Source: Comamonadaceae bacterium (GTDB taxonomy: Bacteria > Pseudomonadota > Gammaproteobacteria > Burkholderiales > Burkholderiaceae_C). Taken from it: 64,000 nt of DNA. The stretch covers positions 1 to 64,000 of the forward strand of contig JAIXUC010000020.1 in the NCBI GenBank assembly GCA_027483665.1, read 5' to 3'. This document shows positions 52,811 to 64,000 of this stretch, piece by piece; within the stretch, counting starts at the first letter, position 1; every line of letters begins with the position of its first letter. A program made the translations under genes and the position numbers. The notes under the pieces are model-generated. The model saw only the letters and a program-made list of their open reading frames with translations. It did no database searches and was not told where the DNA came from.

Positions 52811-53116
52811 ATGACCGTTTCCCGCCGTGTATTCATGATGCAAGCTGCAGCAGCCAGCGGCGTATTGGCCAGCCAACAGGCACTGGCCCAGGTGAAATTG
52901 GAAGAGAACGACCCTCAAGCGGTGGCACTGGGCTACAAGCACGACAGCACCAAGGTCGACAACAAGAAGTACCCCAAGCACGCCGCCACGCAGTTGTGCA
53001 ACAACTGCCAGCTCTACCAGGGCAAGGCAGCGGACGCGTGGGGCGGCTGCCCGCTGTTTGGTGCCAAGCAAGTTGCCGGCAAGGGCTGGTGCAGCGCTTA
53101 CGTCAAGAAGGCCTGA
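52811..53116 (+). CDS. High-potential iron-sulfur protein
   Basis: Small periplasmic electron carrier with one [4Fe-4S] cluster. The 101-residue precursor has a twin-arginine signal (SRRVFMMQAAAASG), exported folded as expected for a cofactor protein. The mature part carries the four cluster cysteines at 63, 66, 80 and 94 in the HiPIP spacing CNNC, GGCPLFG and GWCSAYV. Such proteins feed electrons to photosynthetic reaction centres or terminal oxidases; no photosynthesis gene is visible, so a respiratory role is likelier. A terminator hairpin follows 45 bases after the stop. Confidence 0.94.
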   Translation: MTVSRRVFMMQAAAASGVLASQQALAQVKLEENDPQAVALGYKHDSTKVDNKKYPKHAATQLCNNCQLYQGKAADAWGGCPLFGAKQVAGKGWCSAYVKKA

Positions 53117-53161: not shown

Positions 53162-53199
53162 AAACCGCCTGGAGGATTGACTTCCTCAGGCGGTTTTTT
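53162..53199 (+). terminator. Intrinsic terminator after the HiPIP gene
   Basis: AAACCGCCTGGAGGA (from 53162) pairs with TCCTCAGGCGGTTT (ending in a six-T run at 53194-53199), with a single bulged G and a small loop. The right arm contains the stop codon and last three codons of the convergent TAXI gene, so the hairpin is partly coding for that gene. Confidence 0.85.
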
Positions 53200-54568
53200 C
53201 TTGAGGGGTGCCACGCAGCAAAGCGCTGCGAACCAGGGCGATGTGCTGGCGCAGGGCGTAGAGCTCATCGGTGTAGGACAAAGGCACGACGACCCGGCCC
53301 ACTTGACGCTCGACCTCGTCGAGCGCAGACAACAGCACGGGGGCGGGCTCCAAGCCCTCGGCCTGACGGTCTTCCAGATCGCGCAATTGCGCGTACCAGC
53401 GGAACACGCGGGAACGCACGCGAAACTCGTACAAGGGCGGCACGATGCGGCTCAGCGGCAACAACACCGCGACGATCAGCCCCAACACCAGCCACATGCG
53501 CTCGATGAGGTTGGCCACCCAGAACGGGAGGTAGCGCTGCAACAGGGGCGTGCCCGAACGCAGCGTGCGCTCGGCTTCGGGCCACAAAGGAAACTCGTTC
53601 AACTCGGCACTGGGAAACTGGCGCGCCCGGTTGAACCAACCCGCATCTCCGTGCAGCGCAACCGCTGCTTGTGAGAACAGCGTGCGGATGGCCGGGTGGG
53701 TGCCATCGCGCGCCAGCAAAGCGGTGGTGGGCGCCACCAGCCGGATGTCGCGCGGCGGCAAATCGGTTGCCAGGTTGACCACGCCGCGCGGCAACACCAC
53801 CGGCGTGAGGTAGGTGAACCTGCGCGCATAGGCCTCAGCCTGGGCAAAGTCCATCAACTGCACGCCCGGCGTTTGCAAAAGCATTTGCACCATGAGCGAC
53901 TGCGGTGCGGAAGCAAAGACCAGCGCGTCGATTTGCCCTTCCAAAAACGCCACGACCGCGGGGGTGGGTTCAAGCTGGCTCAACAGCCAGGTTTCAGGCT
54001 CGACTTGGTTGGCTTCGAGCAGGGTTCGCATGAGCGTGGGCACACCACTGCCTGCTGTTCCGATGTTGATGCGCAAACCGCGCACCTCGGTCAGGCCGCT
54101 CAACGACTGTCGGGATGGTTTTTGGGCTTGCAACGCCTCGGTTCTGTAGAAAAACCAGACCGGCTCCACGAACAAGCTGCCCAAAGAGCCGATGCGCGGG
54201 GTGAACATGCTGCCGTCGCCAGTGGCTGCCGAGTCTGAGTCATGGCTGCCGCCTTGTACAAACCCCAGGTCCACCTGGCCCGAGCGCAACAGCGCCAGGT
54301 TGGCAGATGATCCTTCGCTCGGGACCAGCTCCACTGTGATCCCGTGTTCTGCCAAGGCCGCTGCGTAACGCTGACCAAATGCATCGTAGGCGCTTTGCGC
54401 AGGGCCTGTGGCCAAGCGCACGCGCTGGGGAGGGTTAGGGTCCAGCCACCAGTAAGCCAACACCAACAGCAGCACCGCCAACAGCGCGACTGGCCCAGCC
54501 GAGATCAACAAGGCGCGCACGGAAACCAGCGACTGGCTGACTATGCGGGCCATCTTGGGGCGGGTCAT
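53186..54568 (-). CDS. TAXI-family TRAP-type solute-binding protein, membrane-anchored
   Basis: Binding protein of the TRAP-associated extracytoplasmic immunogenic family, 460 residues. A transmembrane helix at about 18-41 precedes the ligand domain with RLATGPAQSAYDAFG and LRINIGTAGSGVPTLMRTLL, which are TAXI signatures. Unlike soluble TAXI proteins it has a second helix near 355-375 (MWLVLGLIVAVLLPLSRIV) and a charged cytoplasmic tail of about 85 residues. No DctQ or DctM permease gene is nearby, so it may act as a sensor or scaffold rather than in transport (inference). Its ATG at 54568 overlaps the preceding hydrolase stop. Last gene of the long minus-strand unit. Confidence 0.88.
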   Translation of the reverse strand: MTRPKMARIVSQSLVSVRALLISAGPVALLAVLLLVLAYWWLDPNPPQRVRLATGPAQSAYDAFGQRYAAALAEHGITVELVPSEGSSANLALLRSGQVDLGFVQGGSHDSDSAATGDGSMFTPRIGSLGSLFVEPVWFFYRTEALQAQKPSRQSLSGLTEVRGLRINIGTAGSGVPTLMRTLLEANQVEPETWLLSQLEPTPAVVAFLEGQIDALVFASAPQSLMVQMLLQTPGVQLMDFAQAEAYARRFTYLTPVVLPRGVVNLATDLPPRDIRLVAPTTALLARDGTHPAIRTLFSQAAVALHGDAGWFNRARQFPSAELNEFPLWPEAERTLRSGTPLLQRYLPFWVANLIERMWLVLGLIVAVLLPLSRIVPPLYEFRVRSRVFRWYAQLRDLEDRQAEGLEPAPVLLSALDEVERQVGRVVVPLSYTDELYALRQHIALVRSALLRGTPQEKTA

Positions 54569-55617
54569 TGGGGAACAAAGCGAGAGAGCAGAGCTTGGTT
54601 CTGCTCGGGCCACTGCCGCAGGGCCTGGCGCTCGTCGAGCAAGGCCGATCGCAGAAAAGCCAAGGTCAGGCTGGCCGTGGCTTGCTTGATGCGGTCGTTC
54701 AGTGATGCGCTGCCCGATTGGCGATCGGTGAATATGCTGTGCGAGCCACCCGCAAAGACCGCGAGCGTCTTGTCGGGTGCGGCCATCGCTTCGAACAAAG
54801 CGATGCGGTCAGACGCATCCGAGAAATAGCCCGGCACACGGATGGTGTCTTCGGTGGTGGTGACGTGCAGATTGGGCACTTGCACCGGCGCGAGCACGCG
54901 CTTCAAGTCTGGCTCGCCGTAGAAAGGCGGTGCCGAAAGCAACACCGCAGCGCGCACACGGGGATCTGCCAAGCGCACAGGCTGCCCCTGCCGTTCGACC
55001 GTGGCACCCACGGCCAACATGGCGGTGTTGGCACCGTAGGAGTGGCCAGCGGCGGCGATGCGCTCGAAATCGAGGCGCTGCGCGATGCCGGCTTCACGCT
55101 CGATTTGGTCCAGACCAAACGACAAGTCGGCCACGCGCGCAACGGCTTCGGCGTCTTGTGCTGCTGCTGCCAGGCGGCCCGGCAAGCCCAAGGCACTGCC
55201 GCGCCAAATCTGGCGGTCGCTGCCCACATGTTGCAGGTGCAGGCTGGCCATGCCATGGCTTGCCCAGTGGCGCCCCAGATAACTGTAGCCCTCGCGCGAA
55301 CCCCCGATGCCATGTGAGAACACCACCAGCGGCACCCGATGGGTAGCCTCGGGCAGGTACAGCCGCGCCGGCACGGGGCGCTGGCGGGTGCCGTCGAGCC
55401 AGTCGAAGTCTTGCAGCGTGAACGCGCCCTGCGCTGCGCCCCGCAGCATGTCTTGAGCAGCTGAGCCAGGTGGCCACAATGCCCAAGCGCCGCCAACACC
55501 AAAAGCAGCAGCGCCCAGCAGCCAGGTTCGTCGGCTTGAACCTCGGCTTGGGGTGCCTTGGGGGGGTGCAGCGGCGTGCACATCGCCTAGGGGTTTCAAA
55601 TGGCGCGGTCGGTTCAT
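54565..55617 (-). CDS. Exported alpha/beta hydrolase (PAF-acetylhydrolase-like)
   Basis: Predicted periplasmic hydrolase of 350 residues. The N-terminus has a twin-arginine-like stretch SSRRTWLLGAAAFG (27-40) followed by a hydrophobic segment. The hydrolase core has FSHGIGGSREGYS (100-112), nucleophile Ser193 in AGHSYGANTAM and His in AGGSHSIF, as in dienelactone-hydrolase and platelet-activating-factor-acetylhydrolase relatives. It overlaps the epimerase stop and the TAXI start by four bases each. In this company a lipid or ester substrate is plausible but unproved. Confidence 0.84.
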   Translation of the reverse strand: MNRPRHLKPLGDVHAAAPPQGTPSRGSSRRTWLLGAAAFGVGGAWALWPPGSAAQDMLRGAAQGAFTLQDFDWLDGTRQRPVPARLYLPEATHRVPLVVFSHGIGGSREGYSYLGRHWASHGMASLHLQHVGSDRQIWRGSALGLPGRLAAAAQDAEAVARVADLSFGLDQIEREAGIAQRLDFERIAAAGHSYGANTAMLAVGATVERQGQPVRLADPRVRAAVLLSAPPFYGEPDLKRVLAPVQVPNLHVTTTEDTIRVPGYFSDASDRIALFEAMAAPDKTLAVFAGGSHSIFTDRQSGSASLNDRIKQATASLTLAFLRSALLDERQALRQWPEQNQALLSRFVPQ

Positions 55618-56510
55618 GGGGCCTCCGAGGTGCTGTCGATCTGCATCCAGGCGCTGGCGGTTTCACCCGGCTGCAATACCCGAATGCCCAGGCTGTCCAG
55701 TTGGACTGGGTCACCATGCGCGAGTTGCAGGGCGTTGTTGACGTGGCTCACAGGCTCGATGGCGAGGAAGTCGCGCCCGGGCTGGGTGAAGACCACCACG
55801 CGTTTCAGGTTTGAGTTGATGCGTGTGCGCAGGCGGCTGTCTTGCAGCAAGGCTTGGCCGTCCCAGCCGTCAAAGCAGTGGTCTACATCGAGGCTGTCGC
55901 AGTCGGCGCTGGGGCCTGCGCTCGACTCATGCCGGGTGGGCAGCTTGCGCTCGTCCATGGCCCAGCGGCCCTTTGCGCACAAACTCAGACGCGCCCCTGG
56001 GCGCTTGACGAAATAGGGGTGCCAGCCCAGACCTACCGGTGCAGGCTGTGGGTGCGTTTGGCGCAGCTCCATGGACCAGCGCGTGCCGTGCGCGTGTACC
56101 TCAAAGTGCTGCTCCGCCTCAAAGGAGAACGGCCAGTTCTCGTCTGGCGTGTGGCGCAGACGCAGGCTGGCCCGCGTGGGGCTTTGCGCGGTGACGTCCC
56201 ATGCGCGCCTCCAACCCACGCCGTGGATGGCATGGGGCTCGGGCTCGAAATTTCGCGCCAACGCGTGGTGCTGCCCAGCCCAGTCGAAGGCAGCGTCGCC
56301 AATCCGATTGGAAAACGGCACCAAGGGATAACTGCCGCTGGCGCGCACTTGCGCCAAGCTCAGCGGCTCTGCGCTGCGCAACACGGGCTCTGCACCACAC
56401 CAAAGCCCCGCCACGCAACCGCCCAGGTCGGGGCGCAGCACCAGCCGAAAACGCAGGCCGGCCGGGCCGGCTGGCCCCAGCAGCTCCACGACCTGGGCTT
56501 GCGTGTTCAT
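55614..56510 (-). CDS. Aldose 1-epimerase family protein
   Basis: Galactose-mutarotase-fold protein of 298 residues. The conserved active-site elements are present: LVPFSNRIGDAAF, IHGVGWRRAWDV with the catalytic His, VGLGWHPYF with the second His, and FLAIEPVSHVNNAL with the catalytic Glu. It probably interconverts anomers of a hexose or a sugar derivative. The gene overlaps both neighbours by four bases. It is not a member of the known fatty-acid-modification module upstream, so its coupling to those genes is notable. Confidence 0.88.
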   Translation of the reverse strand: MNTQAQVVELLGPAGPAGLRFRLVLRPDLGGCVAGLWCGAEPVLRSAEPLSLAQVRASGSYPLVPFSNRIGDAAFDWAGQHHALARNFEPEPHAIHGVGWRRAWDVTAQSPTRASLRLRHTPDENWPFSFEAEQHFEVHAHGTRWSMELRQTHPQPAPVGLGWHPYFVKRPGARLSLCAKGRWAMDERKLPTRHESSAGPSADCDSLDVDHCFDGWDGQALLQDSRLRTRINSNLKRVVVFTQPGRDFLAIEPVSHVNNALQLAHGDPVQLDSLGIRVLQPGETASAWMQIDSTSEAP

Positions 56511-57007
56511 GAGCCGGCAGCGCGGCGCTTGAGCCAGCGCATGAGCGTGCCCAGCGCAGGCAGCTTTTCATACAGCTCTTCGGCCACGTCCCAATAGTCG
56601 CGGTGCCAAACGATGCGCCCGTCATCGGCCAGCTTCAAATGGCTGCTGCCGCGGATGCAGCGCGGCTCGCGCTGGCCTTTGAAACAAAACAGAAAGTCCC
56701 AGCACAAAAAGGCCTGGCGGCCGTCGACCACTTGGGTGGTCACCACAAAGCGCGGTTGATCCAGTGCCACGTACATGTGCGAGAACACCCGCTGCACTTC
56801 GGCCAAGCCACGGACTTCGTTGAATGGGTCTTTGAAGTAGGCGTCGGGCGTGTAGTACTGGTCGAACTGCGCCACGCTATGTGGAGTGAGTGCTTCAAAG
56901 AAAGCCACGATGCGCGCCACTTCTGCGCGGGCGGGTGCAGGTGCTGGTACAGGTGCAGCGGCCAAGTCGGCGGCGGCGGCCATGGAGGTGTCCGCTGTCA
57001 CGCTCAC
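56507..57007 (-). CDS. NTF2-like (SnoaL-type) family protein
   Basis: Small cone-shaped-fold protein of 166 residues. The domain runs from VARIVAFFEALTPHSVAQFDQYYTPDAYFKDPFNEV-like sequence near residue 33 to RIVWHRDYWDVAEELYEKLP. It resembles ketosteroid-isomerase relatives that act as isomerases or binding subunits. The GTG at 57007 is chosen because it overlaps the SDR stop (GTGA); about 23 further codons upstream lie inside the SDR gene. The first 30 residues are Ala/Pro-rich and disordered. The same family accompanies the SDR and DUF3833 genes in other proteobacteria. Confidence 0.82.
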   Translation of the reverse strand: MSVTADTSMAAAADLAAAPVPAPAPARAEVARIVAFFEALTPHSVAQFDQYYTPDAYFKDPFNEVRGLAEVQRVFSHMYVALDQPRFVVTTQVVDGRQAFLCWDFLFCFKGQREPRCIRGSSHLKLADDGRIVWHRDYWDVAEELYEKLPALGTLMRWLKRRAAGS

Positions 57008-57798
57008 AAACCCGTCATGCGGCGCACCAAGGGGAAATAGGCGCTGTAGGGCAACTGGCTGATCAGTTTCATCCAACGCGTGAAGCGCTTGGGAAAGTGG
57101 ATCTCGAACTCGCCGTCAGCCCAGCCCGCCAGAATGGCTTGGGCCGCTTGCTCTGGCGTGATGAGCGCGGGCATGTGGAACTCGTTTTGCGCGGTCAGCG
57201 GCGTTTCCACAAAGCCCGGGTTGACCAAGCTCACGCCCAAGCCAGCGTCTTGCAAATCAAGGTAGAGCGTTTCAGCCAGATTGATGAGCGCCGCCTTGGT
57301 CGGGCCGTAGGCCAAACTTTTCGGCAGGCCGCTGTAGCCCGCCACGCTGCTGATGAGGCTGATGTGCCCACTGCGACGCGCCAGCATGTCCGGCAACACC
57401 GCGTCCAAGAGGTGCAGCGCGCCCACATAGTTCACCTGATCGTGCATCAGCATGTCGGCCAAGTCATAGGCCGTGGCGCGCTGCGGCTTGTAATAACCCG
57501 CGCAGTAGAAAGCCAGGTCGATCGGGCCGCCAGTTCGGATGTGCTCTGCGGCTGCGCGCACGGCGTCGGCCTGGGTCACGTCCAGCGGCAATGCCTGTGC
57601 TGCGACGCGGCCGGTGGCGGGGTCTGCCGGGTGGCTGTCGGCAAAACTTTGCAGCAGTTCTGCGTTGCGCGCCGACACGATGACGCGCGCGCCACGGGCG
57701 TGCAATGCGCTGGCGGTGGCACGGCCAATGCCGGTGGAGGCACCGACCAGCCAGACGCTGCGGCCCTGCCAGTGGCGTAGTGGGGAGTTGAGCGGCAT
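57004..57798 (-). CDS. Short-chain dehydrogenase/reductase
   Basis: NAD(P)-dependent oxidoreductase of 264 residues. The cofactor loop GASTGIG is at 19-25. The CAG motif (99-101) stands in place of NNAG, and the catalytic Ser150/151, Tyr164 and Lys168 sit in SLISSVAGYSG and AYGPTKAAL. The ATG at 57798 begins MPLNSPLRHWQGRSVWLVGAS; a TTG at 57813 would overlap the DUF3833 stop and add five residues. It is coupled to the NTF2-like gene. Within this gene set it may act on an oxidised lipid or aldehyde, which is inference. Confidence 0.9.
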   Translation of the reverse strand: MPLNSPLRHWQGRSVWLVGASTGIGRATASALHARGARVIVSARNAELLQSFADSHPADPATGRVAAQALPLDVTQADAVRAAAEHIRTGGPIDLAFYCAGYYKPQRATAYDLADMLMHDQVNYVGALHLLDAVLPDMLARRSGHISLISSVAGYSGLPKSLAYGPTKAALINLAETLYLDLQDAGLGVSLVNPGFVETPLTAQNEFHMPALITPEQAAQAILAGWADGEFEIHFPKRFTRWMKLISQLPYSAYFPLVRRMTGL

Positions 57799-57809
57799 GC
57801 GGTGTCCGA

Positions 57810-58349
57810 TCAACGCTTGCGAAAGGACAAAGTCACTTCGCCCAGCCGGATGCCAAATTTGCTCATGGTGGCTTTGTTGAGCATGGTGCGCTCGTCCATG
57901 AGGTACATCCAGTCGTCGAACTGCACCTCGTAGGTCTTGCCGTCCACCGGCAGAGCCAGCGTGTAAGTCCAGAAGAAGGCGTTGCCGCGTTCCTGCCCAA
58001 AGGCTTCGCCAACCACGTCGTCCGCTCGGCCGACATAGCGGCCATCTGGCAGTTTTTTCATGCGCCAGACGCGCTTTTGTTTGGTGCCGTCGGAGTAGAA
58101 GAAGTCTTCGTCCAGCACGCCATCGTCGCCGTTCCAGCTGCAGTTCATCACCACGGTGAAGCGCTTGACGACTTTGCCCGAGCGATCGGTGAACACGCCC
58201 CAGGCATCCACCACGCCGTTGAAGTACTGGCGCAGATCAAGCACCGGTTTTTCTGCGGCGTAGTCGGAAATCTGCTGGCTGGCGCAGCCGCTTAATGCCG
58301 CCACAGAGGTGGCGGCCAAGGTGGCGGATAAGAGCAGTCTGCGTTTCAT
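57810..58349 (-). CDS. DUF3833 family lipoprotein
   Basis: Lipid-anchored envelope protein of 179 residues with lipobox ALSGC ending at Cys22. The mature sequence contains LDLRQYFNGVVDAWGVFTDRSG, characteristic of DUF3833, and continues as a single beta-rich domain resembling lipocalin-like barrels (FTYTLALPVDGKTYEVQFDDWMY). Function is unknown; the family recurs beside CFA synthase and DUF1365 genes. It overlaps the MFS gene stop by four bases. Confidence 0.88.
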   Translation of the reverse strand: MKRRLLLSATLAATSVAALSGCASQQISDYAAEKPVLDLRQYFNGVVDAWGVFTDRSGKVVKRFTVVMNCSWNGDDGVLDEDFFYSDGTKQKRVWRMKKLPDGRYVGRADDVVGEAFGQERGNAFFWTYTLALPVDGKTYEVQFDDWMYLMDERTMLNKATMSKFGIRLGEVTLSFRKR

Positions 58350-59677
58350 GGAGCGTCTTTCTGGAGCGATGGAGATGGAATGGGCTCAGGCGCCGGTTCA
58401 GCCAATGCCGGCGCGCGGATGATCAAGGCGTACAAGCCAGCGGCAGCCAACAGCTTGAGTACACAGGGCAACAAGCAATAAGCCAGGGTGAGTGCTTGCA
58501 GTGCCTGCGGGTCGCGCGTGCCAGGCTGGTAGCCGAACAGGCCCAGCAACGGCAAGGCAAGGCCCGCGGCGAGTGCCAGGTTGAGCTTGATGGCGAAGTT
58601 CCACCAGCCGAAGTAAGCACCCTCGGCCTGACCACGGTCGCCGCCCTGGGCGATGACACCAGCGAGCATCGCGCCCGGCAAGGCCAGGTCTGTGCCCAAG
58701 GCCACGCCCGACAGGGCGCATACCAACACGAAGGCCCAGGCATCACCGGCACCCAGTTGCGAAGCCCACACGAACACGGCGATGGCCAGCAACATGCCTG
58801 CCAGCCAAGTGCGCGCCAGACCCCAGCGGCGTACCAAGAAAAGCCACAGCGGGATGGAAGCAGCAGCCGTCAAGAAGTAAGTGCCCAGGAAAGCGGGCTC
58901 CATGCTGGCCGGGGCTTGCAGGCGGTCTTGCACAAAAAACAGCACCAGCGTGGCAGGCACCGCGCTGGCAATGCCGTTGAGCACAAACACCGCCAGCAGT
59001 CGACGAAAGGCCGGGTTGGCCAATGGCCGCCACAACCAGGCAGCCGATGCCGCTTGTGGCGAAGCACGTCGTGGACTGGGTGCCACCGATCTCGCCCAGG
59101 CCCACCAACCCACCCCAAGGCACGCAGCAAAAACCGCACTGGTGATGCCCAGCCCAGCCACCGTCGGCAGCACGGAAGCCGTCACCACGCCCACCAGCCC
59201 CAAGCCCTCGCGCCAAGCGACGATCCGGCTGCGTTCGGCCTCGCTGCCACCGTGCATGGCGGCCCAGGCTTGGTGCATCACCGACAACAGGCTGTAAGCC
59301 GCGTAGGTGATGACCAGCATCACAGAGGCGTAGATCAGCAGGCCCGTCTGGGTGGCGCGCACTGCGGTGGGCGGAAAGAACAGCATCACAAAACCGGCCA
59401 GCAACACCAAACCCGCTACACCGCCGACGCTGAGCACGGCGCGGGTGGAGCGCGCAAACAGGCGGTCTGACCAGCGGCCCAACAGCGGGTCGATCACCGC
59501 GTCAAACAAACGCGCGCCCAACAACACCGCGCCCAGCCACGCCAGGGGAACCGCGAACTCACGCGCATAGTGGTTGGGCAGCAGCACGTACAAAGGCAGC
59601 GCGACGAAAGCCAGTGGCAAGCCCAACAGCCCATAGCGGGCGGCCTGTGCCGCAGAGAAAGGGTCGTGCTGCGCCAT
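58346..59677 (-). CDS. MFS transporter, GPH (sugar:cation symporter)-like
   Basis: Inner-membrane permease of 443 residues with about 12 helices. The loop GRWSDRLFARST after the second helix fits the MFS/GPH A-motif, and ARLFDAVIDPLLGRWSD is a strong GPH signature. The two halves are separated by a loop rich in Pro and Arg (SVAPSPRRASPQ). The ATG at 59677 gives MAQHDPFSAAQAARYGLLGLP. It lies between the chalcone-isomerase-like and DUF3833 genes. GPH-like members recur in this gene set, but the substrate is not known; a lipid or lipid precursor cannot be excluded. Confidence 0.88.
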   Translation of the reverse strand: MAQHDPFSAAQAARYGLLGLPLAFVALPLYVLLPNHYAREFAVPLAWLGAVLLGARLFDAVIDPLLGRWSDRLFARSTRAVLSVGGVAGLVLLAGFVMLFFPPTAVRATQTGLLIYASVMLVITYAAYSLLSVMHQAWAAMHGGSEAERSRIVAWREGLGLVGVVTASVLPTVAGLGITSAVFAACLGVGWWAWARSVAPSPRRASPQAASAAWLWRPLANPAFRRLLAVFVLNGIASAVPATLVLFFVQDRLQAPASMEPAFLGTYFLTAAASIPLWLFLVRRWGLARTWLAGMLLAIAVFVWASQLGAGDAWAFVLVCALSGVALGTDLALPGAMLAGVIAQGGDRGQAEGAYFGWWNFAIKLNLALAAGLALPLLGLFGYQPGTRDPQALQALTLAYCLLPCVLKLLAAAGLYALIIRAPALAEPAPEPIPSPSLQKDAP

Positions 59678-59703
59678 GGGCTGTGCTGCTGCTGGGCCAG
59701 CTC

Positions 59704-60318
59704 TTAACGACCACTGCGGGCCAACAAAGCCTCGCGCAGTTGCGGCGCGGAGGTTTGCGGAGCCAGCCAGATGCCAAAGAAAAGACGCGCGAACTCGGCA
59801 TCGGCCACCTCGCCTACGGGGCGGTCGTTGGCCAAGAACACCACACCCTGCCCGGGCCTGTAGATGCCGGCGATGCGATCGCCTTTTTTCACATCGGGCA
59901 GCAAGCGCTGCAGGGCATCGCGCCAACGCTGCGCCTGCGCTTCGTCGAAGCGGCCCACGCGCCGCATCTCGACCACCGAGCGTTCGGCAATGCGCGCGCC
60001 AGGCAAGGCACGCAAATAGGTCAGCTCCAGTCGCATGGGGTGTGCCGCGTAGTTGTCGGCAGTAAAGCCGGGGGCCACGTCGAGGCGTGCGTCGTAGACG
60101 TCGAGACCCAGCCAAGTCATGCGGCCTTGGCCTGCCTGCCGCAACGACATGGCAGCCACGCTGCCGTCTGCTGCCGGCGCCCCCTCCACTGGGCGCTGCT
60201 GGGTTGCAGCCGAATGCGCTGCTGAATGCGCCGCTGAATGCGCCATGTCCGAAGAAGCCCAAGCCGCATTCGCCGCGAGCGCCAGCAAGCAAGGGACAGC
60301 GCGGGCTGCGGGTGTCAT
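59704..60318 (-). CDS. Chalcone-isomerase-like domain protein, exported
   Basis: Predicted periplasmic protein of 204 residues in the chalcone-isomerase-like family, whose bacterial members are thought to bind fatty acids rather than isomerise chalcones. A signal peptide of about 21 residues precedes three SAAH units (12-base DNA repeats). The domain contains GLDVYDARLDVAPGF, LELTYLRALPGARIAERSVVEMRR (shown in part) and KGDRIAGIYRPGQGVVFLAND. It overlaps the end of the methyltransferase gene by four bases, which supports a shared role in lipid modification. Confidence 0.85.
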   Translation of the reverse strand: MTPAARAVPCLLALAANAAWASSDMAHSAAHSAAHSAATQQRPVEGAPAADGSVAAMSLRQAGQGRMTWLGLDVYDARLDVAPGFTADNYAAHPMRLELTYLRALPGARIAERSVVEMRRVGRFDEAQAQRWRDALQRLLPDVKKGDRIAGIYRPGQGVVFLANDRPVGEVADAEFARLFFGIWLAPQTSAPQLREALLARSGR

Positions 60319-61562
60319 GGTTTGCGCAGCGTGTACTGCACCACGTCGATGTTGGCGTGGGCGAAAGCTGCTTCGCAATACGCGAGATAGAACTCCCATA
60401 TCTTCATGAACCTTTCGTCAAAACCAAGGGACAACACGTGAGCCTTTTCGGCCAGGAACTTCTCGCGCCAGCGCTTGAGCGTCTCTGCATAGTCGGCACC
60501 AAACGCGAACTCGTCTTCCACCACCAGGCCAGCGTGCTCGGCCTGCTTGCGGAATTCCGCGGGGCAAGGCAAGCAGCCACCGGGGAAGATGTATTGCTGG
60601 ATGAAATCGGTCGATTGCAAATAGCGCTCAAAGTAGCGGTCTGCGATGACGATGCTTTGAATGCAAGCCCGTCCGCCCGGTTTCAGCAAACGCGCCACCG
60701 ACTGAAAGTAGGTGGGCCAGTAAGCGCGCCCGACGGCTTCGACCATCTCAATCGAGCAAATGGCGTCGAACGGACCATCGTTGATGTCTCGGTAGTCCTG
60801 CAAGCGCAGGTCGGCGCGCTGCGCCGTGCCCAAGCGCTGCATGCGCGCTTGCGCGAAAGCCAGTTGTTCGGTGGACAAGGTCACGCCAGTCGTGGACGCA
60901 CCGAATTCGGTGGTGGCCATTTCGGCCAACGCGCCCCAGCCACAACCGATCTCCAGCACCCGCTGGCCGGGCTGCAACTGCACCATGCGCAACGCCCTGC
61001 GAACCTTGGCAAATTGCGCCTCGCGCAGCGACAGGTCGGCTTTGTCCCCCGCAGCATCGAAATGCGCGGAGGAGTAATTCATGGTGTCGTCCAGCCACAG
61101 TTCGTAGAACGCATTGCCCAAGTCGTAGTGCGCGTGGATGTTTTTGCGGCTGTTGGTGCGGGTGTTGCGGTTGAGCAAGTGGCGCAGCCGATAGGCGAGT
61201 CGCCCGATCCAGCTGCCGTAGATGATGTCTTCGACCTCGTCGCGGTTGGCAATGAAGAGCTTGAGCAACTCGATCAGGTTGGGCGTGCTCCAGTCGCCTG
61301 CGATGTAGCCCTCGGCGAAGCCAATGTCACCCGACTTCAGGGCAGCGCCGGGGAGTTTCCAGTTGTGCAGCACGATGGTGGCGTGCGGCTCGCCGTCGCC
61401 CGGCTCGGTTGCGCCGAAGCGGTGCACGCTGCCGTCGGGCAAGTTCACGGTCAGCACGCCGTGGCTGAGCCGCTTCAGCAGGGCCAAGGCCGTGCGCGCG
61501 GCCGAGGGGGCCTCTGCCGGCAAGCGTGAGGAAGACAGGGTGCTGGGGTGCATCGAGGGCAT
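60315..61562 (-). CDS. cfa: Cyclopropane-fatty-acyl-phospholipid synthase-like methyltransferase
   Basis: SAM-dependent enzyme of 415 residues that methylates unsaturated acyl chains within membrane phospholipids. LEIGCGWGALAEMA (203-216) binds SAM. IHAHYDLGNAFYELWLDDTMNYSSA lies at 142-166 (shown in part), and FPGGCLPCPAEF carries the family's active-site region. GFAEGYIAGDW (81-91) belongs to the N-terminal lipid-binding domain. Products could be cyclopropane, methyl-branched or furan-precursor acyl chains; sequence alone does not decide. The ATG at 61562 has a second in-frame ATG at 61553. Confidence 0.9.
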   Translation of the reverse strand: MPSMHPSTLSSSRLPAEAPSAARTALALLKRLSHGVLTVNLPDGSVHRFGATEPGDGEPHATIVLHNWKLPGAALKSGDIGFAEGYIAGDWSTPNLIELLKLFIANRDEVEDIIYGSWIGRLAYRLRHLLNRNTRTNSRKNIHAHYDLGNAFYELWLDDTMNYSSAHFDAAGDKADLSLREAQFAKVRRALRMVQLQPGQRVLEIGCGWGALAEMATTEFGASTTGVTLSTEQLAFAQARMQRLGTAQRADLRLQDYRDINDGPFDAICSIEMVEAVGRAYWPTYFQSVARLLKPGGRACIQSIVIADRYFERYLQSTDFIQQYIFPGGCLPCPAEFRKQAEHAGLVVEDEFAFGADYAETLKRWREKFLAEKAHVLSLGFDERFMKIWEFYLAYCEAAFAHANIDVVQYTLRKP

Positions 61563-61619
61563 GGCTACAGATGGATGGTTGTTCTGACGGGTGGTCTGGT
61601 TAAGGCGGGCAGCAGCGCG

Positions 61620-62447
61620 CTAGCGTGTGACAAAGGCGTCCGGCGGCTGCGGCTTGCGGTGAAACCGCACCCGCTTGCGCCACAGGTTCACGGCCTGCCA
61701 GTGGATGCGAGCGATCACACCCAAAGTGTGCAAAGGGTAACGCCATGCGGCCTTGTGCAGGCTGGCTGCACAAAGCAGCTCCAACTGTCCGCTGACGCTG
61801 GTTTGCAGCAGCGGGCCGCTGTCGTCGTCGTGGTCGATGCGGGCCACCACTTTGGCACCCGCGCCGGGCCAGCCGGGTTGTTCGCCGCCTGCTGTCATGA
61901 AGCGGAAGCGGTAGCCGCCTTCGATGCTGCAAAAGGGCGACACATGAAACACCTTCTGGGCGCGCAGCTCTTGGCCCAGACGAGGCTGGTCCAGGAAGTA
62001 GCAGTGGCGCTCGCCGAAGGTGTTGTTGACCTCGACCACGATGGCGCGCAGGCCGCCGTCGGCTCGGTGGCAGTGCCAAAAGCTGACGGGCTTGAAGGTG
62101 TAGCCCCAGATCCTGGGGTAACAGTGCAGCCAGACTTCACCATCGGCGTCAGCGACGCCCTCGGCACGAAGCAGTTCGTCTAACCAAGACAGCGCACCGC
62201 CCGCCTCGGGGCCGCGCCCGTCGCCGTGGTCGACGTCGTGGAAGCTCAGCAAACCCGAGCGGTTGCGGGCCAGTGCCGGCCAGCCGTGCTGGCGCAGGCT
62301 GCGCATGGGCAGCATCAGAAAAAACGTGGGGTACTGAAAGGCGTGTGCCGGGCGCAGGCGCACATGGCGCACAAGCCCAAAACCCATGAGCACAGGTTGA
62401 GGCTTGACATGCTGTACGGGCGGCGCTGCTGGCGCACTCGGGTTCAT
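61620..62447 (-). CDS. DUF1365 family protein
   Basis: Cytoplasmic protein of 275 residues. VRHVRLRPAHAFQYPTFFLML-type opening, YPRIWGYTFKPVSFWHCHR and VVVEVNNTFGERHCYFL are DUF1365 signatures, and KVFHVSPFCSIEGGYRF follows. No catalytic mechanism is established; the family almost always sits beside an FAD oxidoreductase and a CFA-type methyltransferase, exactly as here. The ATG overlaps the FAD oxidoreductase stop by four bases, and a 57-base gap separates it from the methyltransferase gene. Confidence 0.9.
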   Translation of the reverse strand: MNPSAPAAPPVQHVKPQPVLMGFGLVRHVRLRPAHAFQYPTFFLMLPMRSLRQHGWPALARNRSGLLSFHDVDHGDGRGPEAGGALSWLDELLRAEGVADADGEVWLHCYPRIWGYTFKPVSFWHCHRADGGLRAIVVEVNNTFGERHCYFLDQPRLGQELRAQKVFHVSPFCSIEGGYRFRFMTAGGEQPGWPGAGAKVVARIDHDDDSGPLLQTSVSGQLELLCAASLHKAAWRYPLHTLGVIARIHWQAVNLWRKRVRFHRKPQPPDAFVTR

Positions 62448-63820
62448 GCCAACTCCGCCACTTTTCCAGTGCCGGTTGCTGCACCGTTCGCCATCTGTGC
62501 AGGTTCGTCTGCGCGTTCGTGTTGGCCTGTGGTCCCCGCCTGGATGCCTTGCGCCACGCCCAGGCCGGCTTTGTAGCCGTCTTCATGAAACCCGTAGCCC
62601 GCCCAGGCGCCGCAAAACCACGTGTGCTGCTGGCCTTGCAGCCGAGGCAACTGCGCCTGCGCTCGCACGGCAGCCACATCAAATACAGGATGCGCGTAGT
62701 CATAGCGACCCAGCACATGGCGTTCCTCAATGTCGCGCAAGGGGTTGAGCGACACCACCACGGGCTGTGCGAAGGGCAGCGGCTGCAGGCGGTTGAGCAA
62801 GTAGTGCAGGCACACGTGCGCTTGTTCTGCGCTGGCGTCGGCTGCGCGCTCGTAGTTCCAGGCAGCCCAGGCAGCCCGACGCTCTGGCAAAACGCTCGCA
62901 TCGGTGTGGAGCACGGCCACATTGGGGTGGTAGCGAATGGCACCCAGCACCGACTGCTCTTGCGCGCTGGGCTCGGCCAGCAGCGCCAGCGCTTGGTCGG
63001 AATGGGTGGCTAGCACCACCTCGTCGAAGCGTTCGTCGGTGCTGTCGGTCAGCACGCGAACACCTTGTGCGTCGCGCTCGATGCGGCGAACCGGGCTGTT
63101 CAGGCGGGCATCCGCCAGGCCCGAGATGATGGCTTGCACGTAATTGCGCGCGCCACCGCTGACCGTGAACCATTGCGGCCGGTTGGTGACCTGGATCAAC
63201 CCGTGGTTGTGACAGAACCGAATCATGGTGGAGACCGGGAACTGCAACATCTGTGCCGTGGGGCAGCTCCAGATGCAGGCCATCATGGGCATGAAGTACC
63301 AGTCGCGAAACTCGTCGCTGAATGCTTGGGCTTGCAAAAATTCGGCCAGCGGCTGCGTCAACTCGGCCTCGGTGCCTTGTTGCGCGATGCGGCTGGTCGT
63401 GGCGTTGAAGCGCAGCAAGTCGCGCAACATGCGCAAGAAACGCGGGTTGAGCAAATTGCTGCGTTGCGCAAACACGGTAGACAGGCTGCTGCCGCTCCAC
63501 TCCAGCGTGCGCCCACCCAGCACGCCCGGCGCTTTGACAGAAAAAGACATGTCCGACTTGGACGTGGCCACGCCCAGCTCCTCGAACAGCGCAATCAGCT
63601 GCGGGTAGGTGCGTTCGTTGAACACCAAAAACCCGGTGTCCACACCATGCGTGACGGCTAGACCAGAGGCATCGGGCAGCGTCACATCGACCGTGTTGGT
63701 GTGGCCGCCGAAATAACTGCCCGCTTCAAACAGGGTGACTTGGGCGGTTTCGTGCAAGCGGTGGGCCGCCGCCAATCCGGCAATGCCTGAACCGACAACC
63801 GCCACGCGGCGCCGGCTCAC
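62444..63820 (-). CDS. FAD-dependent oxidoreductase (amine-oxidase fold)
   Basis: Flavoprotein of 458 residues. The Rossmann motif VAVVGSGIAGLAAAHRL (6-22) and the following FEAGSYFGGHTNTVDV are typical of the NAD(P)-binding amine-oxidase group that accompanies DUF1365. The C-terminal FAD motif is FCGAWAGYGFHEDGYKAGL. It probably oxidises or desaturates acyl chains or their products (inference from company). Translation begins with GTG at 63820. It is the first gene of the eleven-gene minus-strand unit and lies 14 bases downstream of a T-run preceded by a hairpin-forming leader. Confidence 0.9.
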   Translation of the reverse strand: MSRRRVAVVGSGIAGLAAAHRLHETAQVTLFEAGSYFGGHTNTVDVTLPDASGLAVTHGVDTGFLVFNERTYPQLIALFEELGVATSKSDMSFSVKAPGVLGGRTLEWSGSSLSTVFAQRSNLLNPRFLRMLRDLLRFNATTSRIAQQGTEAELTQPLAEFLQAQAFSDEFRDWYFMPMMACIWSCPTAQMLQFPVSTMIRFCHNHGLIQVTNRPQWFTVSGGARNYVQAIISGLADARLNSPVRRIERDAQGVRVLTDSTDERFDEVVLATHSDQALALLAEPSAQEQSVLGAIRYHPNVAVLHTDASVLPERRAAWAAWNYERAADASAEQAHVCLHYLLNRLQPLPFAQPVVVSLNPLRDIEERHVLGRYDYAHPVFDVAAVRAQAQLPRLQGQQHTWFCGAWAGYGFHEDGYKAGLGVAQGIQAGTTGQHERADEPAQMANGAATGTGKVAELA

Positions 63821-63834
63821 CGCACCACCCCTGC

Positions 63835-63964
63835 AAAAGAAAAAGCTGCGAAGCGCCCCGACGCGAACAAGGGAGGGAGTGAGGAGGAGGAAAACCGCCT
63901 CGGGATTTCAGACCGCCCCACCGGGATGGTCTGGCTTCGCAGCATCAAAACTGAGCTTGCTGCG
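63835..63964 (-). promoter_or_regulatory. Attenuator-like leader of the FAD-oxidoreductase operon
   Basis: Read on the minus strand, GCTGCGAAGC (63943-63934) can pair over its full 10 bases with GCTTCGCAGC (63854-63845), which is followed at once by TTTTTCTTTT, a terminator layout. The same left arm can instead pair through GCTGCG with the earlier CGCAGC (63964-63959), which would prevent the terminator. A third hairpin CAGACC/GGTCTG lies inside. The layout suits transcription attenuation, but no ligand or leader peptide is recognised, and the terminator loop of about 79 bases is long. Confidence 0.35.
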
Positions 63965-64000
63965 TAAGAACACACATCCCGAAGCCAGGTTCCCGCGGCT
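63840..64000 (+). ncRNA. Possible structured RNA (6S-like), cut by window end
   Basis: Read on the plus strand, GCCTCGGGAT (63897-63906) pairs with ATCCCGAAGC (63976-63985) and encloses two hairpins, CAGACC/GGTCTG and CGCAGC/GCTGCG. Short stretches ATTTCAGACC, CAAAACTG and ACACACAT occur in the same order as similar pieces of E. coli 6S RNA, though the spacing differs. This is weak evidence, and the opposite strand has a competing attenuator reading. Confidence 0.22.

Follow-up and report, generated by a model that had tools for sequence, protein, structure and literature searches.

The closest described relatives of the locus examined here are the furan fatty acid (ufa) genes of two alphaproteobacteria. 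In Rhodobacter sphaeroides, RSP1091, RSP1090 and RSP2144 are reported to encode UfaD, UfaO (a DUF1365 protein) and UfaM, and in Rhodopseudomonas palustris the same three proteins are assigned to RPA2571, RPA2570 and RPA2569 (PMC7380195). RSP1087-1089 are described as dispensable for furan fatty acid formation in R. sphaeroides (PMC7380195), and the control reported for this synthesis in alphaproteobacteria is that of sigma-E and ChrR (PMC7380195, PMC6852236). We examined a comparable locus of a Comamonadaceae bacterium in a window of 64,000 bases (i.e., the whole stretch analyzed, which makes up the first 64,000 bases of the 184,631-base contig C25 in a 2.9-Mb genome). Judged by its gene families, the core of an eleven-gene run in this window is a ufa operon of a known kind, with genes for a flavin adenine dinucleotide (FAD)-dependent desaturase, a DUF1365 protein and an S-adenosylmethionine-dependent methyltransferase in the same order as in R. 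palustris. The window differs from the known ufa sets in that it contains chalcone-isomerase-like and NTF2-like genes and three extra genes at the end of the run, lies in a genome with no match to ChrR, and carries a structured RNA and a short leader in front of ufaD. Whereas the ufa core is known in kind, the RNA and its leader appear to be new in part and are our main subject.

The first three genes of the run match UfaD, UfaO and, probably, UfaM. The UfaD-like FAD oxidoreductase gene (62444-63820, minus strand; Pfam Amino_oxidase, 1.2e-18, and NAD_binding_8), a putative methyl fatty acyl desaturase assigned at the level of its family, holds the position of RSP1091 and RPA2571 and adjoins ufaO through a 4-base overlap. 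The ufaO gene (61620-62447, minus strand) belongs to the DUF1365 family of furan-ring-forming monooxygenases (PF07103, 7e-73, 245.5 bits), and the methyltransferase gene (60315-61562, minus strand; PF02353, 9e-86), which completes the order seen in RPA2571-2569, is of the CMAS family; it does not reach the cut-off of any listed Cfa model, and it probably encodes UfaM but may encode an ordinary Cfa. Three further R. sphaeroides genes, RSP1089-1087 (402, 186 and 245 amino acids (aa)), resemble the MFS, DUF3833 and short-chain dehydrogenase (SDR) genes of the window in length (PMC7380195). The product of the operon would be furan fatty acids acting against singlet oxygen. The family names of RSP1089-1087 presumably match MFS, DUF3833 and SDR as well.

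For comparison we used 150 genomes of the same family, in which the window's own genome is the sole representative of its genus. DUF1365 was found in 110 of them, the own genome included, and 107 of the other 109 loci were fetched and compared with the window proteins by tblastn, in which single queries may miss divergent members. The UfaD-UfaO-methyltransferase trio is kept in all 107 loci, and all eight core genes stand in order in 65. This bears out a first-pass annotation of the window, which had stated that FAD oxidoreductase, DUF1365, CFA-type methyltransferase, chalcone-isomerase-like, GPH-type MFS, DUF3833, SDR and NTF2-like genes recur together.

Results

The structured RNA upstream of ufaD is about 120 nucleotides (nt) long (63835-63958, minus strand; match to covariance model R1 at 63833-63954), its 5' end near 63958 being placed from the position of the promoter. 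Its architecture is that of a three-way junction in which P1 (11 pairs; in the window, 63943-63934 with 63854-63845) closes the structure, P2 (63933-63909) is a variable hairpin, and P3 (10 pairs; 63905-63896 with 63865-63856) bears a CU-rich apical loop (63867-63894) resembling an anti-Shine-Dalgarno sequence. In most relatives this loop is 30 nt long and CUUCUCCUCCUCCCUCCCUCCCUCCUU-like, and a U-run (63844-63835) follows P1. The RNA came to light when a k-mer count over 106 upstream regions gave a shared CU-rich, stem-like block, and a script that searched inverted repeats for an enclosed CU tract picked out 51 of the 108 regions upstream of ufa, including that of the window. A narrower scoring kept 52, from which L115, L119, L118 and L083 were removed, L115 and L119 as chance stems; L118 and L083 were returned with hand-placed anchors to give an alignment of 50 copies. 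One further copy, L109, present in the first scan and lost in the narrower one, was recovered by the model at 49.5 bits, bringing the number to 51.

Within the 50-copy alignment, 24 of the 28 pairs changed on both sides and 89.5% of cells are paired. P1 and the T-richness following it (though not P2 or P3) were used in picking these copies, so that the statistics for these two features are partly selected. Not one of 500 shuffles reached any of five covariation measures, and sliding the alignment by a single column lowered pairing to about 41%. All seven inner pairs of P3 vary on both sides (91.7% paired), and P2 is weaker (73.8% paired). Among the 26 copies found by the model (20 fetched unlinked copies, five others and L109), whose alignment was fitted to that model, 22 of 28 pairs covary, again with 0 of 500 shuffles doing as well. 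Taken alone, the window's copy folds at -48.8 kcal/mol (z-score -3.5), a value matched by 2 of 200 shuffles. The case for a conserved RNA structure is thus strong, while the mechanism built on it is put forward conditionally below.

It is the loop, rather than the stems, that is most conserved: 23 loop columns are 92% identical, versus 83% for P1, 64% for P2 and 77% for P3. The loop is 98% pyrimidine (in the window the tract is interrupted by one A and one G), and each of the 50 copies contains two to six CCUCC words. The U-run is likewise retained: the 9 nt that follow P1 include four or more T in 47 of 48 copies and in 25 of the 26 found by the model.

Model R1 placed the RNA in 109 of the 150 family genomes, with one match in each and a score of 107.9 bits for the window's copy. 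At the level of the order, 11 of 399 genomes match and all 11 belong to the same family; the model's E-values are rough, and the share of family members among the 399 is not given. Because only the best 24 (family) or nine (order) candidates per genome were scored under strict filters, weak second copies or distant relatives may have escaped, and as far as searched with those filters the RNA looks restricted to the family. A scan against Rfam 15 (4227 families) returned a best E-value of 1.1 for the window's region and nothing at E <= 0.1 for 17 homologous loci. The RNA was not recognized among the papers listed by open-literature searches, and a text search with the letters of the CU loop gave no bacterial sRNA paper by title, so that it is apparently undescribed. 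A plasmid search with the RNA of one relative gave no match, and at E <= 1 the RNA is absent from all 38 loci of named genomes that hold a homologue of the hydrolase gene near the end of the run. As an identity for this RNA, the Bordetella BRE repeat was considered and set aside because BRE is described as multi-copy (PMC3110155).

By coordinates, 53 of the 109 copies adjoin DUF1365 (including those of G137 and G082, whose DUF1365 genes are broken and which lie outside the fetched loci) and 56 are unlinked, some of them in genomes without a DUF1365 match (e.g., G012 and G019). We fetched 20 of the 56 unlinked loci, and in all 20 the gene downstream is convergent, encoding either a glutathione S-transferase (GST, 11 loci) or CorA (nine loci); it lies within 300 nt of the RNA in 17, and in L321 a same-strand SDR homologue stands between the two. 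A convergent gene downstream implies that the RNA is a gene of its own, and by its predicted promoter and terminator it is a candidate standalone small RNA (sRNA) gene.

The promoter was recognized from a motif shared among copies. Within 170 nt upstream of the RNA, GGAAC[TC] occurs in 63 of 76 loci, against a mean of 6.4 and a maximum of 15 in 500 rounds of shuffling, and it is combined with TCNA at a spacing of 15-18 nt in 39 of 76, against a mean of 0.35 and a maximum of 3 in 300 rounds; both sets of shuffles kept single-base composition only. Broken down by class, the -35 element is present in 44 of 50 linked copies, 9 of 11 GST-type, 5 of 9 CorA-type and all five others, and is lacking in L109. 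The candidate in the window (63965-63993, minus strand) consists of a -35 element GGAACCT (63993-63987), a 17-nt spacer and a -10 element TCTTA (63969-63965). We take the GGAAC/TCNA element to be of the RpoE (ECF02) type, GGAACTT-N16/17-TCNA. The genome encodes an RpoE homologue (TIGR02939, 235.0 bits against a cut-off of 236.15) followed by an RseA_N protein, and the RNA would be transcribed by RpoE. A different promoter guess, TTGGTC-N18-TAATAT with the palindrome CATAAtcaacTTATG (C25, about 64090-64055, upstream of the RNA), was dropped as a shared element, the palindrome pattern occurring in the own genome only when the 300 nt upstream of ufaD were searched in 105 relatives. A sigma-70 pattern scan of contig bases 61000-65200 gave 0 sites (shuffles, 0.5).

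A leader open reading frame (ORF) of 42 aa (63817-63945, minus strand; ATG at 63945) begins near the edge of P1, runs right through the RNA and ends with a TGA (63819-63817) that overlaps the GTG of ufaD as GTGA; in the window, 14 nt separate the U-run from ufaD. This frame is under constraint in the linked copies: the arm-to-arm length of P1 is a multiple of three in 48 of 50, the length of P2 is 1 mod 3 in all 50, and the frame contains no stop codon in 48, versus 28 and 34 for the other two frames. The ufaD starts in relatives were placed by extrapolating the BLAST match, so that distances to them are approximate. The stop of the leader frame lies no more than 20 nt from this start in 42 of the 50 linked loci, and that of the remaining two frames in 1 and 3; an NTGA overlap in frame with ufaD is seen 24 times for the leader frame and 0 and 3 times for the others. 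Among unlinked copies, P2 is 1 mod 3 in 4 of 11 of the GST type, several of which do not keep the leader frame, and in 8 of 9 of the CorA type, which may descend from linked ancestors. In L101, L074 and L111 the leader frame continues in frame into UfaD, like a fusion of leader and enzyme; this may be chance, and it had been counted as support and was dropped, as the other frames do so in 9 and 16 of 50.

What stands in front of the ufa genes varies among relatives. The front ends of the 107 loci comprise the RNA only (25), the RNA with a LitR gene (25), LitR only (25), a TetR-type regulator (13), ChrR (11) and an unassigned class (8). One of the unassigned loci, L035, is from a genome whose ChrR match exceeds the cut-off and lies some 5.5 kb upstream on that contig. 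In all, 50 of the 107 loci have a LitR/CarH-type MerR-B12 gene no more than 4 kb upstream of ufaD (e.g., L082:14299-15249, a 316-aa protein with MerR_1 and B12-binding domains). In the 19 loci with both LitR and the RNA that were inspected, LitR is upstream on the opposite strand and adjoins a glutathione peroxidase (GPx) gene where one was found. The upstream regions of LitR loci often have a palindrome-like TTGTCTAGGACAA, as noted by eye in the portion viewed. The TetR-type regulators (e.g., L119:14185-14829) appear to be an alternative front end.

Neither ChrR nor LitR seems to apply to the window. The first-pass annotation had assigned related R. sphaeroides genes to the singlet-oxygen sigma-E/ChrR regulon, and published work agrees that these counterparts belong to that system and make furan fatty acids (PMC7380195, PMC6852236). 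The assignment does not extend to the window's genome, in which TIGR02451 had 0 matches while a Caulobacter control was positive, and control by ChrR was rejected there. Across the family, ChrR exceeds the cut-off in 14 of 150 genomes, and any match at E <= 0.001, mostly weak and partial, occurs in 49. Control by LitR was rejected as well: the genome has three MerR_1 matches in open frames of 157-161 aa, too short for a B12 domain (B12-binding itself was given no search of its own there).

Directly upstream of the RNA, and just outside the window, is a GPx gene (GSHPx, PF00255) on the operon strand (minus; C25:64113-64865, i.e., L002:4113-4865). A GPx homologue is found upstream in 31 of 50 RNA-bearing versus 11 of 57 RNA-less ufa loci of relatives. 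A periplasmic glutathione peroxidase of Shewanella is reported to depend on RpoE2 (PMC4336711). Divergent from GPx is a weak AurF/FA_desaturase_2-like match (C25:65049-65984, i.e., L002:5049-5984), whose homologues (75-94% identical over the matched parts) neighbor the RNA in many relatives, both where ufa is present and where it is absent.

The remaining genes of the run lie on the minus strand downstream of the methyltransferase gene. They encode a chalcone-isomerase-like protein (59704-60318, PF16036; scanned as 59704-60399), a GPH-type MFS transporter (58346-59677, PF13347; scanned as 58346-59683), a DUF3833 protein (57810-58349, PF12915), an SDR (57004-57798; scanned as 57004-57813, a TTG start at 57813 being possible too), a SnoaL/NTF2-like protein (56507-57007; Pfam, scanned as 56507-57076), an aldose-epimerase-like protein (55614-56510; PF01263, 7.5e-30), an alpha/beta-hydrolase resembling PAF-AH_p_II (54565-55617; Pfam) and a TAXI-type solute-binding protein (53186-54568; PF16868). 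A high-potential iron-sulfur protein gene (PF01355; window 52811-53116) lies on the opposite strand, 69 bases past the end of the TAXI gene.

ORF calls and Pfam confirm the eleven minus-strand genes at the order and coordinates given by the first-pass annotation, and its eight 4-base stop/start overlaps at ten junctions can be read from the sequence. Six are ATGA overlaps (FAD/DUF1365, CFA/chalcone, MFS/DUF3833, NTF2/epimerase, epimerase/hydrolase and hydrolase/TAXI); the SDR/NTF2 junction is a GTGA overlap that needs a GTG start for the NTF2 gene, and the DUF3833/SDR junction is a TTGA overlap that needs a TTG start for the SDR, for which an ATG lying 15 nt further on is no less likely. The junctions without overlap are a 57-nt gap between DUF1365 and CFA and 26 nt between chalcone and MFS. 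That annotation had missed a twelfth unit upstream, the short leader ORF, whose junction with ufaD makes a ninth 4-base overlap. Conservation of the first eight genes in relatives is a better test of the operon than the number of overlaps.

The last three genes of the run (epimerase, hydrolase and TAXI) are additions that are not found at this place in relatives. In 74 loci with at least 1 kb beyond the NTF2 gene, a homologue of any of the three follows the core in none. Homologues at E <= 0.001 are present in 57 (epimerase), 53 (hydrolase) and 98 (TAXI) of the 150 genomes, the own genome included, and apart from the own genome no two of the three occur together in the sequence retrieved around each best match, which covered mostly 1.5 kb to either side and as much as 10 kb for the 38 hydrolase loci of named genomes. 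Near the hydrolase in those 38 loci there is no epimerase, TAXI or NTF2 homologue; scattered SDR, methyltransferase and CheW homologues at 26-33% identity were disregarded. The three tail genes look like an accretion in the lineage of the window. The first-pass annotation had proposed that they extend the operon into a larger envelope system, and had named the lack of conserved linkage in relatives as grounds for giving up that proposal; the linkage is absent.

Discussion

We suggest, tentatively and as a reading that we find plausible and still short of probable, that an RpoE-dependent sRNA doubles as the translated, terminator-like leader of the ufa operon. Under envelope stress, RpoE would act at its promoter to produce the structured RNA of about 120 nt in front of the furan fatty acid genes. 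Where it stands alone, facing convergent genes and ending in a terminator-like stem and U-run, this RNA should work in trans, and its near-invariant CU-rich loop would then pair with the Shine-Dalgarno regions of target mRNAs. When the leader is translated, ribosomes would unwind P1 and P3, no terminator would form, RNA polymerase would continue into ufaD, and the ribosome could re-initiate at ufaD through the stop/start coupling. When the leader is not translated, P1 would close, transcription would stop at the U-run, and the free sRNA of about 120 nt would be released. An evolutionary extension, which we entertain with considerable doubt, is that a single-copy anti-Shine-Dalgarno sRNA was turned, in about half of the ufa loci, into a translated attenuator, in which the structure but not the peptide is kept and the constraint on the frame is tightest where the operon lies downstream.

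Several observations weigh against this dual role. The RNA is missing from 57 of 107 ufa loci (25 with LitR, 13 with TetR, 11 with ChrR and 8 unassigned), and it is therefore not needed for the pathway. In 25 of 107 it occurs upstream together with LitR, so that other promoters may drive GPx-RNA-ufa; in LitR loci this unit may also be light-driven, and the window's genome has no such gene. The -35 element is missing in 13 of 76 copies, including 4 of 9 unlinked copies of the CorA type, and the promoter of the window is itself weak, with GGAACCT as its -35 element and TCTTA rather than TCNA. There is no sign of selection on the peptide, in that third codon positions are no more variable than second positions and the BLOSUM score does not differ between frames 0 and 1. 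An ATG, GTG or TTG codon is present at the edge of P1 in 23 of 50 copies (31 with CTG), and no clear Shine-Dalgarno sequence was seen by eye. The multiple-of-three spacing is also found in 19 of the 26 model-found, mostly unlinked copies, and the frame constraint is thus not confined to linked copies. Finally, as noted above, the statistics for P1 and for the T-rich stretch after it are partly selected. With the run-on frames no longer counting in its favor and the promoter element absent from some unlinked copies, we slightly lowered our confidence in the full mechanism and raised that in the plain sRNA considered next.

A rival reading is that the RNA is a trans-acting, RpoE-dependent anti-Shine-Dalgarno sRNA and nothing more, with ufa having its own promoter and the leader frame being a by-product of history. 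This account, which we consider possible and rather unlikely, draws on the convergent gene in each of the 20 unlinked loci examined, on the copies in genomes without a DUF1365 match, on the strong conservation of the loop, on a peptide that is not under selection and on the multiple-of-three spacing of mostly unlinked copies. However, a by-product of history would not be expected to end so regularly at the ufaD start, which the other two frames almost never do, and the 14 nt between U-run and ufaD in the own genome are too short for a promoter there. The opposite simplification, that the RNA is solely a cis-acting leader of ufa (either a riboswitch or an attenuator), would explain why the 51 RNAs among 108 ufa upstream regions share one orientation and why the leader frame ends at ufaD. 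It is nevertheless very unlikely and largely refuted: the 56 copies away from DUF1365, some in genomes that have no match to it, led us to reject a pure ufa leader, and a convergent gene lies downstream in the 20 unlinked loci examined.

The leader ORF might instead encode a functional small protein, to which the structure is secondary. A frame that is almost always free of stops in linked copies and that ends at the ufaD start is what one would expect of a gene, but the codon positions and BLOSUM scores do not behave as those of a protein under selection, the frame is lost in several unlinked copies of the GST type and the start codon is not conserved, and we give this explanation little credence. 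We think it similarly improbable that the partner of the CU loop is a protein and not mRNAs, making the RNA one that titrates or scaffolds protein. A pyrimidine-binding protein would find an equally suitable site in a CU tract that is long, conserved and single-stranded, whereas the repeated CCUCC words in every aligned copy fit pairing with Shine-Dalgarno sequences; we know of no protein partner of this loop, although no search aimed at one was made. As for the proposal of an extended envelope system spanning the whole run, with the three tail proteins processing or sensing a modified lipid, the 4-base coupling of all three tail genes in the own genome speaks for it, and the lack of linkage in every one of the 74 relatives, together with the three genes lying apart elsewhere, makes it barely credible.

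If the RNA does serve both as sRNA and as leader, it would provide a clean, testable example of how an sRNA gene turns into a translated attenuator, in which one transcript either terminates and works in trans as a stress sRNA or continues, by translation coupling, into the genes for lipid protection. As a widespread, single-copy sRNA candidate that is absent from Rfam 15 and has a conserved anti-Shine-Dalgarno loop, it should reveal, through its targets, what members of the family switch off under envelope stress. The occurrence of the ufa operon behind four front ends in one family (ChrR, LitR, TetR and an RpoE-type RNA leader) makes this family a natural series of exchanged control over a single lipid-protection pathway.

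Elements of the RNA have counterparts among described sRNAs. In Escherichia coli, MicA, RybB and MicL are sigma-E-dependent sRNAs with a GGAACTT / TCNAA promoter, and the window RNA would share with them its promoter class and, likely, a role as a repressor, sequence and structure having been compared by Rfam scans only. In R. sphaeroides, CcsR1-4 carry a CCUCC-type loop motif. Pos19 of the same species, an RpoE-dependent sRNA of photo-oxidative stress, is called a small coding RNA (PMC5036791, PMC8307010), and as described it resembles our reading of the window RNA in joining RpoE dependence with coding; it comes from a different organism group, its RpoE is of the ChrR type, and the likeness is drawn from its description. 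Among betaproteobacteria, Bordetella S17 and Burkholderia bdhR1 (RF02278) are described as having C/U-rich single-stranded sites and a factor-independent terminator (PMC11722255), but their locus differs, lying between a glycosyltransferase gene and coq7, and the Rfam scans gave no match of that family to the window RNA. A likeness in design exists to the alpha-r14/cuckoo sRNAs (NfeR1), whose unpaired loops are reported to keep a strongly conserved CCUCC-type anti-Shine-Dalgarno motif between stems that have diverged (PMC10746234, PMC3927594), as in the window RNA. These RNAs are characterized by three or more hairpins with the 9-nt motif CCUCCUCCC, and in our alignment a single hairpin loop carries the motif. 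None of the sRNAs compared, as they are described, has the architecture of the window RNA: where the alpha-r14/cuckoo RNAs consist of three or four separate hairpins, each with its own motif, the window RNA is a single three-way junction with one loop of about 30 nt and a terminator-like closing stem.

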